Source: Clostridiales bacterium (GTDB lineage: Bacteria > Bacillota > Clostridia > Oscillospirales > Oscillospiraceae). From it: DNA of 59,779 nucleotides. A program made the translations under genes and the position numbers. The stretch's first letter is position 1. Every line of letters starts with the position of its first letter. The DNA lies in NCBI GenBank assembly GCA_021205695.1, contig JAJPXB010000038.1, positions 1 to 59,779 of the forward strand. The letters are read 5' to 3'. A model generated the notes under the pieces. That model ran no database searches, was not told where the DNA came from, and worked only from the letters and a program-made list of their open reading frames with translations. Below are positions 6,784 to 13,494 of the stretch, piece after piece.

Positions 6784-7305
6784 TCACACCCGTGTCTGTT
6801 CTCTCCAAATCGCCGCGATCCGGCGGGCCGCCGCTGCGGGGGTACTGCACCCGGCGATCTCATAGTGGGCCAGCGACCGATAGACGGGCAGACGCTCCCG
6901 GTAGCGGCGGACAAAGTCCTCCCTCCCCTGTTGCGCCAGGGGCCGGTCAGCCAGATCAGTCCCGTCAAATGTCTCCTCCGGAGATCGGTTCAGAAAGAAA
7001 ATCAGACCGCTCTTCCGGAGCAGCATCCGGTTCTCCTCCCGGAGGGGCAGTCCGCCGCCTGTGGCGATGATCTGCCCGCCCTGGGCGCAGAGGGCCTGGG
7101 CCACCTCGGTCTCCAGAGTGCGGAAATACGCCTCGCCCTTTTGGGTGAATATGTCGCTGACGCTCATTTTCTCCCGCCGGACAATCTCCTGGTCGGTGTC
7201 CACCAGCGGCATTCCCAGCATCCGGCTGAGCCTGCGGCCACAGGTGGTCTTACCGCAGCCCATCATGCCGACGAGGATGAGGTTTTTGCCTTGCCCCTCC
7301 ATCAT
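6784..7305 (-). CDS. aroK: Shikimate kinase
   Basis: The 173-residue cytoplasmic enzyme phosphorylates shikimate with ATP, the fifth step to chorismate. Walker A GMMGCGKT is at residues 13-20, the shikimate/Mg-binding DTD at 36-38, the substrate-binding FRTLE near 62, the ATGGG motif near 77-81, and a lid arginine in DRPLAQ. Length is normal for AroK. Its ATG overlaps the pheA stop by four bases (ATGA), so it is coupled to pheA as the last clear gene of the aromatic operon. Confidence 0.95.
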   Translation of the reverse strand: MMEGQGKNLILVGMMGCGKTTCGRRLSRMLGMPLVDTDQEIVRREKMSVSDIFTQKGEAYFRTLETEVAQALCAQGGQIIATGGGLPLREENRMLLRKSGLIFFLNRSPEETFDGTDLADRPLAQQGREDFVRRYRERLPVYRSLAHYEIAGCSTPAAAARRIAAIWREQTRV

Positions 7306-8465
7306 ACCGCATCCTGCGTGCCCAGATTGGCGACATAATTCCCCAGCACACGGAACTGGTTGGTGGACTGGCTCAGCTCCCGGAGAACAGCGTCCATCCC
7401 CGGGGCGGTGAGGTTTCCGGTAAATTCCACGAAGAACATATACTCCCAGCGCCGGTCCTGCACCGGGCGGGACTCCAGCTTGACCAGGTTCAGGCCGTTG
7501 ACGGCGAAAATGGTCAGTATCTCATGGAGGGAGCCGCTCTGGTGGGGCAGGCGAAAGACCGCCGTGATCTTGTCGCTGCCCGGACGAAGCTCCGGCTTGG
7601 TTCGGACAACGGCAAAGCGGGTGTAATTCTGGTTGTTGTGGTTGACCCCCCGCACCAGGATATCCAGGCCGTAAATCTCTGCCGCCCGTCGGCCGCAGAT
7701 GGCGGCCTTTGTCCGGTCGCCCGTCTCACTGACATACTTGGCGCTCCCCGCCGTGTCCAGCAGGGGGACCCGCACCCACTCCGGGTGCCGGTCGAGGAAC
7801 CGGTCGGACTGGAACAGCCCCTGCTCATGGGAGTAGACGTGGGTGATCTCCTCTATCCTGACCCCCGGCAGGGCCATAAGGCAGTGCTCCACCTTCACCG
7901 TCGTCTCCCCCACCATATAAAACTGATACTGGGTGAGCAGGTCATAGACCTGGCGGATGGCGCCGGTGGTGGAATTTTCAATGGGCAGAACGGCATAGTC
8001 CGCCTCCCCGCAGGCCAGGGCCTCAAAGCAGTCCTCAAAGCGGTTCAGCCCCTGGCTTCGGACTTCTGCGCCGAAGAAGTCCACCGCAGCCTCTTCGCTG
8101 TAGGCCCCAGGCATTCCCTGATAGACCACCATAGGTTCCTCCACCGGGGGAGCGATTTCCACCGCTTGTGGATAGCCGGGAGGCGTGGGCTCCTGGTCCT
8201 GCATGACCCGACGCTGACAGCCCCGGCTCAGCGACATAACGACCTCATAAAGCTTGGCCACGTCCGTCTTGAGCTGGGGGTCGTCCACCATGGCGGCCTT
8301 GTCGTCCAGCACCTCCCGCTCCCGCTCCGGATCGAGCACCGGGATGTCATGGGCGATCTTGTACTCCGCCACCTCCCGGGAAACCTCCATCCGCTGCTGG
8401 AAAAGGCTGACCATCTGGTGGTCGATGGTGTCGATCTGGCCCCGGAGGTATTTGATGTCCTTCAT
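7302..8465 (-). CDS. pheA: Bifunctional chorismate mutase / prephenate dehydratase
   Basis: The 387-residue P-protein converts chorismate to prephenate and then phenylpyruvate. Residues 1-90 are an AroQ-type chorismate mutase (IKYLRGQIDTIDHQMVSL, with arginines and RREV-like helix). Residues about 112-290 are the dehydratase domain with the NYTRF catalytic motif. The C-terminus is an ACT domain with GSLHEIL and the ESRP motif that binds phenylalanine for feedback inhibition. No tyrA is present in the window. It lies between aroC (20 bases upstream) and aroK (overlapping). Confidence 0.95.
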   Translation of the reverse strand: MKDIKYLRGQIDTIDHQMVSLFQQRMEVSREVAEYKIAHDIPVLDPEREREVLDDKAAMVDDPQLKTDVAKLYEVVMSLSRGCQRRVMQDQEPTPPGYPQAVEIAPPVEEPMVVYQGMPGAYSEEAAVDFFGAEVRSQGLNRFEDCFEALACGEADYAVLPIENSTTGAIRQVYDLLTQYQFYMVGETTVKVEHCLMALPGVRIEEITHVYSHEQGLFQSDRFLDRHPEWVRVPLLDTAGSAKYVSETGDRTKAAICGRRAAEIYGLDILVRGVNHNNQNYTRFAVVRTKPELRPGSDKITAVFRLPHQSGSLHEILTIFAVNGLNLVKLESRPVQDRRWEYMFFVEFTGNLTAPGMDAVLRELSQSTNQFRVLGNYVANLGTQDAV

Positions 8466-8485: not shown

Positions 8486-9547
8486 TCAGATGCCCATCAG
8501 CTCACACACTGCCAGCGCCGCCGCCGCCTCGATGACCGGGACAGCCCGGTGGACGATGCAGGGGTCGTGTCGGCCCTGGACAGTGAGCCTGTCGTTGCTC
8601 CAGGTGTCCAGATTGACCGTGTCCTGCTCCTTCCCGATGCTGGCGGTCGGCCGGAGGGCCGCAGTGAACAGGATGGGCAGGCCGTTGGTGATGCCGCCGT
8701 TCACTCCGCCGGAATGGTTGCTGGTGGACGTGACCTCCCCGTTGCGCAAGTACAGGGGGTCGTTGGCCTGGCTGCCCCGAAGGGCGGCAAAGCCGAAGCC
8801 GTCGCCAAAGCCCACCGCCTTCACGCCGGGGACAGCGAACAGGTGCTGAGAGAAGATGCCCTCTACGTTCTCCCCGAAGTCCGGAGCGCCCATGCCACCG
8901 GGCAGGCCCAGAACGGCGCACTCGATGGTGCCGCCGATGCTGTCCCTGTCCGCCTTTGCTGCCAAAATTTCCCGCCGCATGGCCTCGCCCTGCTCGTCCC
9001 GCAGAACCGGAAAGGGCTTGTGGGCAATCTCACGCAGGAGGGACGCCGTCAGGGGCTGCTCTTCATTTTGGAAGGGGGCATCCTCCACCGGCCCCACGGA
9101 TCGGATGTGCGCTCCCACAGAGACTCCCTCCCCTGCCAGGATCTGTTTGGCCACCGCCCCGGCGAACACCAGGGGGGCGGTGAGGCGGCCGGAGAAATGT
9201 CCCCCACCCCGATAGTCATTGTAGCCCTGATACCGGAGAAAGCCGGTGTAGTCCGCATGGCCGGGTCGGGGCAGGTCTTTCGTCTTTTCATAATCCCGGC
9301 TCCGGGTGTCCGTGTTGCGGATGACAGCGGCCAGAGGACTTCCCGTGGTGAACCCCTGGAACACGCCGGAGAGGATCTCCGGGACATCCGCCTCCCGGCG
9401 TTGGGTGGAGCAGGCGTCCTGCCCTGGCGCACGGCGGGACAGCTCAAAGGCGATCTGCTCCAGATCCAGCTCCACACCGGCCGGGACGCCCTCCAGCACC
9501 ACGCCGATGGCGGGGCCGTGGGACTCTCCAAAAATCATGTGCTTCAT
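8486..9547 (-). CDS. aroC: Chorismate synthase
   Basis: The 353-residue FMN-dependent enzyme makes chorismate from EPSP. N-terminal GESHGPAIGVVLEGVPAG, the basic SRRAPGQ stretch, RPGHADYTG and GGGHFSGRLTAP are all present, and length is at the short end of the normal range. Its start lies three bases past the aroA stop, so the genes are read from one message. Confidence 0.95.
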   Translation of the reverse strand: MKHMIFGESHGPAIGVVLEGVPAGVELDLEQIAFELSRRAPGQDACSTQRREADVPEILSGVFQGFTTGSPLAAVIRNTDTRSRDYEKTKDLPRPGHADYTGFLRYQGYNDYRGGGHFSGRLTAPLVFAGAVAKQILAGEGVSVGAHIRSVGPVEDAPFQNEEQPLTASLLREIAHKPFPVLRDEQGEAMRREILAAKADRDSIGGTIECAVLGLPGGMGAPDFGENVEGIFSQHLFAVPGVKAVGFGDGFGFAALRGSQANDPLYLRNGEVTSTSNHSGGVNGGITNGLPILFTAALRPTASIGKEQDTVNLDTWSNDRLTVQGRHDPCIVHRAVPVIEAAAALAVCELMGI

Positions 9548-9550
9548 CTG

Positions 9551-10768
9551 TCATTCCTCCTGTCGGGTGATGCGTCCCCCCAGCCGTTCATAATCTTCCC
9601 AGAATCGGGGATAGGATTTGGCCACGCTCCCGGCGTTGTGAATTGTCACCGGCCCGGTGGCCCGGGTGGCGGCGATGGCCAGCATCATGGCAATGCGGTG
9701 GTCGTTGTGGCTGTCCGTCTCCCCGCCGTGAAGGGCGGAGACGCCGCAGATCGTCATGGCGTCCGGCTTTGCCTCGACGTGCGCCCCCAGACGGTTCAGC
9801 TCGGAGGTCACAGTCTCAATGCGGTCGCTCTCCTTCATTCGCAGGCGGGTAGCATTCACCAGATGGGTGCTCTCCCCCGCCCGCAGAGCCGCGCGAACAG
9901 CCAGAGCCGGGGCCAGGTCCGGGCACTGGCTCACATCCAGGGTCACGGTCCCCCGCCCGTCCAGCCGGGCAGCGTAGTCCCGTATGACCCGGTCTCCCTG
10001 GACAGAGGCGTCGTTCATGCCGCAGATCTCCACCGGGTTGCCCAGCCCCCGGGCGGCGTAGAAAAAGCCCGCCTGGGACCAGTCTCCCTCTACTGTCAGG
10101 CTGCGGCCCACGGGACACTGACCGCCGGGGATGTACCAGCCGTCCTCTGTGCGGTGGACCTTTACTCCGAACCGGCTCAGTGCGTCCACCGTCATGTCCA
10201 CATAGGCGGCGGACTCCAATGGGGTGGTCAGCCGAAGCTCCGAATCCCCCTTCAGCAGCGGGAGGGCAAAGAGCAGTCCGGTGATAAACTGACTGGAGAT
10301 ATCCCCGGGGAGGGCGTATTCTCCCGGCTCCAGCGCTCCCTGTACTGTGATGGAGGTTGGCTCCGCCCGGTAGAAAATCCCCTTCGACCCAAACAGGCGC
10401 TCATACGGCTCCATAGGTCGGGCCAGAAGGCGGCCCCTGCCGGTGAACACCCCGCCGCCGGCCACTGCCAGGGTCACAGGGATCAGGAAGCGCAGGGTGG
10501 AACCGGACTCTCCGCAGTCCAGCAGGGGAAGCTGCTCTCGTCTCTCCCCCACTGTTTTCAGTCCTGTGACCGTCTCTCCGTCCCAGGAGGCTCCCAGGAC
10601 CTCCATACAGCCCAGGGTGGCGGCGATGTCCTGGCTCATGGAGAGGTTGTCCAGGCGGCTGCTCCCCTCCGCCAGAGCGGCGGCGATAATGAGCCGGTGG
10701 CTCTGACTCTTGGAGGCGGGGGGCGTCACCCGCCCCCGGAGCGGCCCCGGCGTGACAGTCACATTCAT
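9551..10768 (-). CDS. aroA: 3-phosphoshikimate 1-carboxyvinyltransferase (EPSP synthase)
   Basis: About 405 residues from the start MNVTVTPG. I chose the ATG at 10768 because it overlaps the aroB stop as ATGA; the longer in-frame ORF (to 10813) would read through aroB coding sequence. Motifs include PASKSQSHR (phosphate/PEP binding), GESGSTLRFLIPV, KESDRIETV and NDHRIAMM. It joins PEP to shikimate 3-phosphate in the sixth step of the pathway. It is slightly shorter than E. coli AroA (427) without loss of any motif seen. Confidence 0.94.
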   Translation of the reverse strand: MNVTVTPGPLRGRVTPPASKSQSHRLIIAAALAEGSSRLDNLSMSQDIAATLGCMEVLGASWDGETVTGLKTVGERREQLPLLDCGESGSTLRFLIPVTLAVAGGGVFTGRGRLLARPMEPYERLFGSKGIFYRAEPTSITVQGALEPGEYALPGDISSQFITGLLFALPLLKGDSELRLTTPLESAAYVDMTVDALSRFGVKVHRTEDGWYIPGGQCPVGRSLTVEGDWSQAGFFYAARGLGNPVEICGMNDASVQGDRVIRDYAARLDGRGTVTLDVSQCPDLAPALAVRAALRAGESTHLVNATRLRMKESDRIETVTSELNRLGAHVEAKPDAMTICGVSALHGGETDSHNDHRIAMMLAIAATRATGPVTIHNAGSVAKSYPRFWEDYERLGGRITRQEE

Positions 10769-11826
10769 AGCAGCGCCAGCAGCTCCTTTTTCTGCATTTT
10801 GGTGGGGGCGCACTCCCCCAGCGTCCGCAGCAGGATAACGGTAATGCTGTCCCCGCTGCCCTTTTTATCCAGGCCCACAGCGCTCTCGTAATCCTCCGCT
10901 GTGCAGGGGATGACGGTGGGCAGGCCAAAGGCGGCGGTCAGGCGCTCGATCTCTGCCTTTGTCCCCGGCCGGGTGATGCCCAGCCGCTCTCCCAGCTCCG
11001 CCGCCAGCACCATTCCGGCAGACACCGCCTGGCCGTGGGTATAGGTCTCGTAGTGGTACGCCTTTTCGTAGGCATGACCCAAAGTGTGTCCAAAGTTCAA
11101 AATCATCCGCAGACCGGTGTCCCGCTCGTCCTCCATGACCACCTTTGCCTTGATGGAGCAACAGGTGCAGAGCACCTCATCGACACGGGCCATCACTCCC
11201 GCCCGGTTTCCGCACCGGGCCAGCAGATCAAAGAAATCTCTGTCCCAGATGCAGCCGTACTTGATGACCTCCGCCATCCCGTCAGAGAAGATGCGGTTGG
11301 AGAGGGTGTCCAGGGTCTTCGGGTCCATCAGCACCAGCTTCGGCTGCCAGAAGGCGCCCACCAGGTTTTTCCCTGTGGGGAGGTCGATGGCTACCTTGCC
11401 GCCCACGGAGGAGTCCACCTGGGCCAGGAGGGTCGTGGGTATCTGGACAAAGGGGACACCCCGAAGGATGGTGGCGGCGGCAAAGCCCGCCAAATCCCCC
11501 ACCACGCCGCCGCCCAGGGCGATGACCGCGTCCGTCCGGGTCAGGCCGAAAGCCATAGCCTCGTCCCAGATGCGCTCCAGCCAGGCGGCGCATTTGGAGG
11601 GCTCCCCGGCGGGGATGGTGACGGTACGCACAGAGAAACCCGCCGTCTCCAGGCTATGGGTCACCTGCGCCCCGTAGAGCGGTCCCACATTGGAGTCGGT
11701 GACCACAAGCGTCCGAACCGTCTTGGGCAGTACTCTCCGGCACTGTGCGCCGGTCTGTTCCAGGAGACCGGCCTCGATCAAAATGTCATATTCCCGCCCC
11801 GGCAGGGCGACGGTCAGCGTTTTCAC
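10765..11826 (-). CDS. aroB: 3-dehydroquinate synthase
   Basis: The 353-residue NAD- and metal-dependent cyclase converts DAHP to 3-dehydroquinate. The signature GGGVVGDLAGFAAATILRG, followed by PTTLLAQVDSSVGGK and metal-ligand histidines (HTLGHAYEK), is intact. It begins 31 bases after aroF and overlaps aroA. aroD/aroQ and aroE for the following two steps are not in the window. Confidence 0.95.
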   Translation of the reverse strand: MKTLTVALPGREYDILIEAGLLEQTGAQCRRVLPKTVRTLVVTDSNVGPLYGAQVTHSLETAGFSVRTVTIPAGEPSKCAAWLERIWDEAMAFGLTRTDAVIALGGGVVGDLAGFAAATILRGVPFVQIPTTLLAQVDSSVGGKVAIDLPTGKNLVGAFWQPKLVLMDPKTLDTLSNRIFSDGMAEVIKYGCIWDRDFFDLLARCGNRAGVMARVDEVLCTCCSIKAKVVMEDERDTGLRMILNFGHTLGHAYEKAYHYETYTHGQAVSAGMVLAAELGERLGITRPGTKAEIERLTAAFGLPTVIPCTAEDYESAVGLDKKGSGDSITVILLRTLGECAPTKMQKKELLALL

Positions 11827-11857: not shown

Positions 11858-12877
11858 TTATTTTACTATGGTCTTCCCCATGAAGTCAACGAGCTTTTCC
11901 ACCTTTCCCATCAGCCCGCTGAACTGCTCCGGCGTCAGGGACTGCTGGCCGTCGCACTTGGCGTGGAGGGGGTCGTTGTGTACCTCCACAATAATGCCGT
12001 CTGCTCCGGCGGCGATGCCCGCCAGGGTCAAAGGCTCCACCAGGTAGCTGTAGCCTCCCGAGTGGCTGGGATCGATGATGACCGGAAGGTGGCTCATGCG
12101 CTTGATGCAGGGGATGGCGGAGACATCTAAGGTGTTCCGGGTATAGGTCTCAGTGGTGCGGATGCCCCGCTCGCAGAGGATAACGTTCTGGTTGCCCTCA
12201 TTCATAATATACTCGGCGGACATGAGCCACTCCTCATAGGTGGCGTTGAGCCCCCGCTTCAGGAGGATGGGCTTACTCATCTTCCCCGCCTCCTTCAGCA
12301 GCTCGAAGTTCTGCATATTCCGGGCGCCGATCTGCACCAGATCCACCTGCTCGTCGAAGATCTCGCAGTACTCCGGGCTGACCAGCTCGGTGACGATGGG
12401 CAGTCCCGTCTCCGCCTTGGCTTCCAGCATGAGCTTCAGGCCGGGCAGCCCCATCCCCTGGAAGGAGTAGGGAGAGGAGCGGGGCTTGAAGGCGCCGCCC
12501 CGAAGGATGGCGGCCCCGGATCGCTGGACGTCCTTTGCAATGGATGTGATCTGCTCCCTGCTCTCAATGGAGCAGGGGCCGGCCATCACCGAAAAGCTGC
12601 CGCCGCCCACGGAGACGCCGCTGACATCCACCACCGTGTCCTCCGGGTGGAACTTCCGGTTGGCCTTTTTGTACGGCTCCGAGATACGGGTGACCCGCTC
12701 CACCACATCGAACTGCTCTATCTTGTGGATATCCAGGGCGGTGGTGTCCCCCACCAGGCCAAGAATGGTGCAATCCACGCCCACTGTGACACCCACCTTG
12801 AAGCTCTTGGCCTCGAAAAAGGCCACCATCTTCCGCACGTCATTTTGGGGGGTTCCCGGTTTCAGAATAACTACCAT
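11858..12877 (-). CDS. aroF: 3-deoxy-7-phosphoheptulonate (DAHP) synthase
   Basis: The 339-residue enzyme condenses PEP and erythrose 4-phosphate, the committed step. Residues 1-65 form the ferredoxin-like N-terminal regulatory domain seen in Thermotoga-type DAHP synthases. The barrel carries AGPCSIES, KPRSSPYSFQG, the ILLKRG segment and DPSHSGG. SD AAAGGAGA precedes the ATG. It is the first full-length gene of the aromatic operon, directly behind a strong terminator and a leader ORF rich in aromatic codons, so expression is likely set by attenuation. Confidence 0.95.
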   Translation of the reverse strand: MVVILKPGTPQNDVRKMVAFFEAKSFKVGVTVGVDCTILGLVGDTTALDIHKIEQFDVVERVTRISEPYKKANRKFHPEDTVVDVSGVSVGGGSFSVMAGPCSIESREQITSIAKDVQRSGAAILRGGAFKPRSSPYSFQGMGLPGLKLMLEAKAETGLPIVTELVSPEYCEIFDEQVDLVQIGARNMQNFELLKEAGKMSKPILLKRGLNATYEEWLMSAEYIMNEGNQNVILCERGIRTTETYTRNTLDVSAIPCIKRMSHLPVIIDPSHSGGYSYLVEPLTLAGIAAGADGIIVEVHNDPLHAKCDGQQSLTPEQFSGLMGKVEKLVDFMGKTIVK

Positions 12878-12896
12878 GTCTCATCTCTCCTTTAAA

Positions 12897-12936
12897 CACA
12901 ACAAAAGGGACTCATTGACCGCAATCAATGAGTCCC
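12897..12936 (-). terminator. Attenuator terminator upstream of aroF
   Basis: On the minus strand a perfect 12-base stem (GGGACTCATTGA / TCAATGAGTCCC, six-base loop) is followed by TTTTGTTGTGTTT and only then the aroF SD. It ends about 20 bases before aroF, so it can only make sense as a conditional terminator of the leader transcript. Confidence 0.85.
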
Positions 12937-12991
12937 TGCGCTGACGCGTTCCGCACGCCATATCGCCCCCGGCATAGGGGAAATCGCCCAT

Positions 12992-13102
12992 CTATTGCAT
13001 CCGATCTCCTGTTTTACCCATGACAAAATAGCCGTAAGCCGTAAATCGGCCCCAGCCAAAGGTAAAGGAGCAGGATGCAGTTTTGAGGACAATGCTGTTC
13101 AT
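12992..13102 (-). CDS. Aromatic-rich leader peptide of the aro operon attenuator
   Basis: A 36-codon ORF (ATG at 13102, TAG at 12994-12992) is preceded by GAGGTG four bases upstream. Residues 13-26 contain seven aromatic residues: F13, F15, W17, F20, Y23, Y25 and F26. It sits between a consensus promoter and the aroF terminator. This is the architecture of ribosome-mediated attenuation (trp or pheA leaders), where stalling at scarce charged tRNA prevents the terminator from forming. Because all three aromatic amino acids are encoded, it would sense general aromatic starvation, fitting the common pathway it controls. The mechanism is inferred; the antiterminator pairing was not resolved by eye. 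Confidence 0.75.
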   Translation of the reverse strand: MNSIVLKTASCSFTFGWGRFTAYGYFVMGKTGDRMQ

Positions 13103-13131
13103 GGCGCACCTCAAATTACTGAGCTGGGTCT

Positions 13132-13159
13132 ATTATAACAGAGATTCCGCAGAATGCAA
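13132..13159 (-). promoter_or_regulatory. Promoter of the aromatic operon leader
   Basis: On the minus strand: TTGCAT, 16-base spacer, perfect TATAAT. It lies about 30 bases before the leader-peptide ATG and drives the attenuated aro transcript. Confidence 0.7.
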
Positions 13160-13245: not shown

Positions 13246-13257
13246 CATGCTGTAATT

Positions 13258-13494
13258 TGGTGATGAAGGGGACGAATCCGCAGAGGTCGGTCAGAGAGAA
13301 GCGCCCTGTGCTGCAAGCGCTTTCCGCCCGAACCGGTGACACCGCCCCGGAGCCGCAGGTGACTAAGCCTGCCGCGCGCCGCCCGTTACTGCGGCCAATG
13401 AGCGGGTCTGTCTCTCCACAGGCAGGCCAAGCAGGGTGGAACCGTGAGATGAATCTTCATCCCACCCCTGAAGCATTTTCAGGGGTGGGATTTT
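13258..13494 (+). promoter_or_regulatory. T-box riboswitch of thrS (threonine)
   Basis: The leader starts with a GATGAAGGGGACGA stem I, has an AGAGA GA-motif, and carries the T-box AGGGTGGAACCGTG at 13433-13446 next to a 13-base-pair terminator (13460-13490) followed by TTTT. Uncharged tRNA pairing with the specifier and the T-box bulge would favour the antiterminator and read-through into thrS. Two ACC threonine codons (13332-13334 and 13341-13343) lie where the specifier loop should be; I cannot tell by eye which is used. Confidence 0.9.

Follow-up and report, generated by a model that had tools for sequence, protein, structure and literature searches.

In Escherichia coli, the trpL and pheL leaders follow a 1-2-3-4 anatomy with a terminator before the first gene and one amino acid read by each, and in thrL and ilvL, which serve other pathways, one leader reads several amino acids. 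The initial annotation of the locus described here held that known attenuators usually sense one amino acid; with thrL and ilvL in mind, leaders that read several are not unusual. Our locus shares its anatomy with trpL and pheL but differs from them in that they answer to a single amino acid and do not stand before the common pathway; it resembles thrL and ilvL in the proposed reading of several amino acids by one leader, although the pathways differ. Both trpL and pheL are mentioned in the available part of PMC11802643. The aroF gene of Corynebacterium glutamicum has a Phe-Tyr-Phe leader peptide (PMC4046766, in part), and a response of this leader to Phe but not to Tyr is reported (PMC11802643, in part, citing Neshat 2014). 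Compared by the partial descriptions available, this system, aroR, is likewise ribosome-mediated attenuation of a DAHP synthase gene through aromatic codons, but it belongs to Actinobacteria, has three control codons in a row and, by that report, responds to Phe but not to Tyr.

Short upstream ORFs have also been noted before aroF elsewhere. The uORFC-13-1 motif, for which the available part of PMC8632094 gives 24 representatives with one Phe codon or more, all before aroF in Acholeplasma or in environmental DNA, shares by that description an upstream ORF, a terminator, the position before aroF and Phe codons with our element. In our set, the aroF of an Acholeplasmatales member (L082) is preceded by a T-box whose specifier we read as Phe, in place of a leader. 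Two upstream ORFs with Phe and Tyr codons before shikimate genes appear in the legend of figure 6 of PMC6429828, the part of that source available, for a five-genome set that includes Clostridium novyi; they are short ORFs with F and Y before shikimate genes, as here, and could overlap with the present family. Firmicutes leader attenuators are described for hisZ/hisS (PMC2965389) and for his operons (PMC9413887), both sources seen in part, and the available parts of PMC11109978 and PMC1262725 contain nothing on an aromatic leader of Clostridia. Among the matches listed in the open-access literature, no aroF leader is described for Clostridia, nor is the present family, which agrees with the initial annotation, to whose author no named family in Clostridia was known. 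The leader family is, as far as searched, new in Clostridia and Negativicutes and known in kind, and we found little in print on the control of the shikimate pathway in gut Clostridia.

The window analysed here is the whole 59,779-nucleotide stretch of an Oscillospiraceae contig, and on its minus strand it very probably carries a ribosome-mediated transcription attenuator of an aroF-led shikimate operon. A promoter can be read from the sequence at 13132..13159, with a -35-like TTGCAT (13159-13154), a 16-base spacer and an extended -10 (TG-T-TATAAT, 13140-13132; TGTTATAAT). The consensus promoter of the initial annotation stands as to the extended -10, which is perfect, but not as to the -35, which matches at three of six positions; a promoter scan of the window does not list the leader promoter. 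Downstream, as had been annotated between promoter and aroF, lies an ORF of 36 codons plus TAG (12992..13102, ATG at 13102, the TAG ending at 12992), preceded at a distance of four bases by the Shine-Dalgarno (SD) sequence GAGGTG (13107..13112); an SD precedes the leader ORF in relatives too. The encoded peptide, MNSIVLKTASCSFTFGWGRFTAYGYFVMGKTGDRMQ, has the annotated series F, F, W, F, Y, Y, F at codons 13, 15, 17, 20, 23, 25 and 26 (13025..13066), positions that exchange among F, Y and W in aligned leaders and that we regard as the putative control codons.

The segments proposed to form alternative helices follow within the same 5' region. Segment 1, with the core GCATCCTGCTCCTTTACC at codons 9-14 (13061..13078), pairs with segment 2 both in the minimum free energy (MFE) structure and as an isolated duplex (-31.0 kcal/mol in the window); in the MFE structure codons 9-14 are paired with codons 29-36 and enclose most of the aromatic run. 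Inside the coding region, a consensus fold places a small hairpin around CGATTT (codons 16-25, 13030..13057, ends approximate), a possible pause hairpin. Segment 2, delimited by eye and by duplex tests on the group, comprises codons 29-36, the stop codon and six bases more (12986..13018); its core GCAATAGATGGG (12998-12987) spans the stop and, by eye, pairs at 11 of 12 positions with segment 3, CTCATTGATTGC (12921..12932), which forms part of the terminator 5' arm and loop and is the putative antiterminator partner, supported by a permutation test on the group. The intrinsic terminator 3:4 (12894..12937) has a stem that covaries; its stem-loop at 12937-12906 is followed by a T tract at 12906-12894. 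The terminator is thus where it had been annotated, with 12 bases between the end of the stem and the aroF SD, but it is not a perfect 12-base-pair hairpin with a T-run: the stem has 14 pairs, 13 Watson-Crick and one G-U, around a loop of four, and the T tract, TTTTGTTGTGTTT, is interrupted. Over the leader, an Rfam search (E up to 10) gave no convincing match, and the T-box covariance model (RF00230) gave none. The sole strong Rfam match near the leader, a T-box that precedes thrS on the opposite strand (13254-13467, plus strand) and diverges from the leader promoter, scores 52.6 bits and falls short of the Rfam gathering score, which is 93.

The genes that follow, all on the minus strand, run aroF-aroB-aroA-aroC-pheA-aroK. 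The first, aroF (11858..12877, with the SD AAAGGAGA at 12893-12886), encodes a DAHP synthase recognized over cut-off by NCBIfam models NF006421 (479 bits) and TIGR01361 (386 bits). Matches over cut-off also identify aroB (10765..11826; TIGR01357, 367.6 bits), aroA (9551..10813; TIGR01356, 288.8 bits, just over the cut-off of 287.25) and aroC (8486..9547; TIGR00033 and NF003793). In pheA (7302..8465), both the chorismate mutase and the prephenate dehydratase domain are matched, every model below cut-off, and the last gene (6784..7305) is an aroK-like shikimate kinase (NF010552, 117.6 bits, below the cut-off of 186). The tyrA ORF of the same genome, examined as a further possible site of a leader, lies on another contig, where 68 bases separate it from the preceding ORF.

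The initial annotation had proposed looking for the leader ORF upstream of aroF in relatives, and it is widespread there. Searching 59 genomes, the window's own included, found aroF in 45, from which the 30 best loci were used together with the best 80 of at least 584 confirmed relatives from a named collection. These 110 loci comprised 109 with the aroF 5' end (L062 was dropped) and 102 distinct upstream regions, the short ones being L088 (162 bases), L038 (238) and L009 (284). Of the 102 regions, which are not phylogenetically independent, 68 have an ORF of 12-60 codons that follows an SD and has five or more aromatic residues within 14 codons. The opposite strand yields two of 102 and dinucleotide shuffling 58 of 2040; when six or more aromatics are required, the corresponding figures are 57 of 102, 0 of 102 and 16 of 2040. 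For the window's own region, none of 3000 dinucleotide shuffles gave an SD-preceded ORF with at least seven aromatics in 14 codons, four gave at least six and 45 at least five. The 34 other regions include near misses: L089 is recovered when the SD window is widened slightly, L039 has a leader with four aromatics, L063 has a leader that lacks a clear SD, and the upstream region of L038 ends within an apparent leader. Named organisms with the leader include Flavonifractor plautii, Pseudoflavonifractor capillosus, Alkalibacter mobilis, Miniphocaeibacter massiliensis, a Christensenella and three Veillonella species.

A second sample covered the family. Of 150 genomes drawn evenly from it, 118 had aroF, and the best aroF copy of 80 genomes was taken; the sample is skewed to closer relatives because genomes were taken best match first. 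It left out the window's genus, G032, G168 (a cut match), G190 and all genomes ranked below G064. The leader is present in 68 of the 78 family genomes with at least 240 bases upstream of aroF; the ten that fail include two near misses (L123 and L132) and one, L155, that resembles L063. In many genomes of the family sample aroF has two paralogous copies, with identities to the one in the window of about 70% and 57%. The 102-region and 78-genome sets overlap and together give 136 leaders with 128 distinct ORFs. A hairpin with a T run was found for 67 of the 68 leaders of the 102-region set, in 65 of them downstream of the leader; the terminator script picked an inner hairpin for L021 and L053 and none for L055. 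From these comparisons, an aromatic leader ORF before aroF is evidently not due to chance.

The aromatic codons are conserved as a class. Among the 128 distinct leader ORFs, 66 have Phe and Tyr codons only, 53 have all three, eight have Phe and Trp, and one has Tyr only; that is, Phe occurs together with Tyr in 119, and Trp is present in 61 and absent from 67. In an alignment of 60 leaders of the window's type, chosen by pattern and including a few that align loosely (L028, L077), seven columns are aromatic in 68-100% of sequences and exchange within F/Y/W: one column has 25 Y and 24 F, another 42 F and 11 Y, and another 47 W, four F, three Y and four C. At the amino-acid level, then, these leaders conserve a series of codons for products of the pathway itself. 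Some of the intervening columns vary and others are conserved (Gly in column 26, 57/60; Arg in column 21, 58/60). Over the whole leader set the codons are mixed (TTT 480, TTC 130, TAT 204, TAC 158), but in the window's type clear synonymous variation is confined to the first aromatic columns, and columns 22, 27 and 28 are nearly always TTT or TAT. The combination of aromatic-codon conservation and synonymous variation that the initial annotation had suggested looking for is therefore found in its first part, together with F/Y/W exchange, and in its second part at some columns but not at others. The extreme case is the Arg-Phe pair of columns 21-22 (codons 19-20 of the window, 13043-13048, minus strand), whose nucleotides are nearly invariant in the window's type: CGA makes up 56 of 58 Arg codons, and TTT is found in 59 of 60 leaders. 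At this pair, within the small hairpin inside the ORF, the nucleotides themselves appear to be constrained, possibly by a pause hairpin or by rare-codon pacing.

Pairing was tested by duplex energy, each segment being combined with the partner from the same locus and with partners exchanged between loci, in representatives below 78% (2:3) or 80% (1:2) identity. For 2:3, with 37 of 65 loci, the energy was -21.27 with own partners and -17.22 (sd 0.52) with swapped ones, and none of 20000 permutations was as good; the region before the leader (12704/20000) and the first part of the ORF (11931/20000) behaved as null controls. In this test segment 2 was sought in the 60 bases before the stop and the terminator loop was included in the arm, a wider arm chosen post hoc after segment 2 of L024 and L083 was seen to reach into the loop and shared by the controls; a narrower arm, the 5' arm without most of the loop, gave 15/5000 for the group. 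An earlier per-locus test against base shuffles placed 15 of 65 loci at or below 10/200. Taken by itself, the window has an unremarkable 2:3 pairing, with base shuffles equalling it in 155 of 200 cases and a permutation residual of about zero. The best partner of the terminator arm starts no later than the last aromatic codon in nine of the 37 loci, and in five of these (L004, L040, L064, L079 and L085) at least 18 bases before it. Leaders of another group (L028, L030, L068, L076, L092, L101, L104, L108) have Cys-Cys or Leu-Cys-Cys near the end, and because these Cys codons belong to the terminator arm's best partner in L028, L076, L101 and L104, segment 2 would lie inside the ORF there.

For 1:2, with 57 of the 136 leaders, own partners gave -17.71 and swapped ones -13.19 (sd 0.42), with 0/10000 permutations as good overall; the count was also 0/10000 when the 19 of the window's type and the remaining 38 were each tested separately. 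Two controls were null (segment 1 against bases beyond segment 2, 1788/10000; the 5' untranslated region against segment 2, 2913/10000). A third, the aromatic run against segment 2, was not (0/10000), which we take as a sign that segment 1 overlaps the control codons, as it does in trp. The terminator helix covaries in 34 aligned sequences (one pair, for example, is GC in 16, CG in ten and AU in seven), and in the consensus fold of these sequences 10 of 19 predicted pairs change on both sides, eight in the terminator and two in the small hairpin. Consensus folding of the alignment recovered only the terminator and the small hairpin, and not 1:2 or 2:3, we think because the register slips between groups. 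Mutually exclusive 1:2 and 2:3 helices are thus indicated for the group, and are plausible for the window alone. Comparative sequence supports the ORF, the aromatic codons and the 1:2, 2:3 and 3:4 helices, and an SD-bearing translatable ORF, a run of product codons, a terminator and competing helices together argue for membership among ribosome-mediated attenuators. The leader-peptide attenuation of the shikimate operon put forward in the initial annotation is in this respect strongly supported, by the ORF, the F/Y/W columns, the group 1:2 and 2:3 helices and the covarying terminator.

Which amino acids count in the response can be approached, as an inference, from codon content and from folding with a ribosome on the leader. 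The transcript was folded before segment 4 with the ribosome footprint masked, which gives an equilibrium estimate of the probability of 2:3, P(2:3). If only pairs 3' of the ribosome are counted, the window's P(2:3) is 0.66 with Y25 or F26 in the A site, 0.39 at Y23 and 0.29-0.45 at F13, F15, W17 and F20 (W17, 0.45), and it is 0.06 with the ribosome at the stop and 0.04 with no ribosome; the non-aromatic codons 5-8 and 27-31 give 0.55-0.67, and for codons 20-26 the value stays close to 0.04 when pairs may span the stalled ribosome. Eight other loci were folded as well; P(2:3) falls towards the stop in L043 and, with downstream pairs only, in L083, and L040, L066 and L100 did not follow the model. 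The folding lends attenuation weak support, and of the aromatic codons this rough estimate would favour Tyr 25 and Phe 26. It is quite possible, if somewhat short of probable, that the same attenuator is in effect a sensor of Phe and Tyr, a narrower reading compatible with the main one, in which the lone Trp codon has its role in RNA structure, as part of the small hairpin's stem, starvation for Trp hardly matters, and Trp supply is watched separately by a T-box before trpE. The predominance of leaders with Phe and Tyr codons, the highest downstream P(2:3) at Y25 and F26, the genome's own trpE T-box with a specifier read as UGG, and the reported response of the Corynebacterium Phe-Tyr-Phe leader to Phe and not to Tyr (PMC11802643, in part) all point that way. 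On the other hand, seven of the 13 departures in the W column are to F or Y, though TGG to TTT or TAT needs two base changes, and W also lies inside the aromatic run of Veillonella leaders. The general sensor of all three amino acids proposed initially is accordingly supported only in part, by codon content for Phe with Tyr and less so for Trp, which has a single codon here and is missing from more than half of the distinct leaders (67/128).

The near-fixed residues of the window's type, Arg-Phe in columns 21-22 and Gly in column 26, could also suggest that a nascent peptide arrests the ribosome on a free aromatic amino acid or another ligand, as in TnaC, rather than through slow decoding. Yet the Arg-Phe codons are themselves fixed as CGA and TTT, and therefore indicate a constraint on RNA; other groups are rich in aromatics but, by eye, share no common peptide motif, and the exchange of F and Y argues for decoding, so we consider such arrest improbable. 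The same conservation of CGATTT and its hairpin at the nucleotide level is what an aptamer formed by the small hairpin and its flanks, with an incidental ORF, would predict. This riboswitch is more improbable still, given that ORF, SD, aromatic run and terminator are all present in most of 24 leaders of other types, which lack that hairpin sequence, and that Rfam has no match over the leader. Short ORFs are common, and one might arise by chance in a constitutive leader next to an unrelated terminator; set against the 68 of 102 regions compared with 58 of 2040 shuffles, and the conservation of both the ORF and the 1:2 and 2:3 pairing, this is scarcely credible.

We therefore return to ribosome-mediated attenuation, in which RNA polymerase would start at about 13125 and transcribe the leader. 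When aromatic aminoacyl-tRNAs are plentiful, the ribosome would reach the stop codon and cover segment 2, so that 3:4 forms and transcription would end before aroF. If charged tRNA-Phe or tRNA-Tyr, or possibly tRNA-Trp, runs short, the ribosome would stall in the aromatic run, segment 1 could not hold segment 2, and the 2:3 antiterminator would form and allow transcription of the operon. With no translation, 1:2 would form and then the terminator.

Within the genus, the core pattern gives 23 matches in 22 of 32 genomes, and 22 of these matches lie no more than about 210 bases before aroF. The pattern is missing from ten genomes, namely five with no aroF match, three with a partial aroF only, one (G013, L007) with aroF and no leader, and one (G014, L019) with a divergent leader. 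The remaining match is a second attenuator copy in G009 (L205, G009:C61:22500-25500), before aroB-aroA, with aroA truncated at the edge of the stretch. In this copy, a leader at 307-387, MLYSSAFYFTGSWNRFYGSGYFAWVK, is followed by a terminator, a short AroF remnant (519-599) and aroB. The remnant matches the last 25 residues of AroF with a score of 68, reached by none of 1000 AroF shuffles (maximum 38), and G009 has aroF elsewhere with its own leader (L022). At this copy, aroF appears to have been lost and the attenuator kept with the operon. Conversely, in L042 and L061 aroF has no leader and another ORF ends 106 and 38 bases upstream, respectively; here the attenuator appears to have been lost or replaced.

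Other genomes seem to control the same gene with a different device. A T-box before aroF likewise controls it by tRNA charging through a terminator, but reads one tRNA directly and without translation, in which the aromatic leader differs. Of the 34 leaderless aroF genes, 20 were searched (L063 included), and four have a T-box above the gathering score just upstream, with the specifier read as UUC in L071, L082 and L086 and as UAC in L091; some lineages therefore have a one-tRNA device at aroF and others the aromatic leader. For hisS, the literature describes a switch between T-box and leader peptide (PMC2965389, in part). The window's own genome has 12 T-box matches, six over cut-off, among them T-boxes whose specifiers, by eye from the alignment, are UAC before tyrS and UGG before trpE; the latter scores 81.3 bits, below the gathering score, and TrpE itself is just below the curated cut-off of TIGR00564.

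The summing of all three amino acids by one leader is an attractive idea, most of all beside single-specifier T-boxes, but it is unproven and weakest for Trp. More tentatively than for the Phe and Tyr reading, we suggest that the leader family may be old in Clostridia and Negativicutes and act as an OR gate, in which a shortage of any of tRNA-Phe, tRNA-Tyr or tRNA-Trp would open aroF while trpE and tyrS keep single-tRNA T-boxes, and that lineages may have swapped devices at aroF. If true, this would be something a single-specifier T-box cannot do. With a sensor family before aroF in 68 of 78 family genomes, leader peptide and T-box can be compared at one gene, which raises the question of whether a lineage may choose translation-coupled sensing in order to add up several tRNAs.
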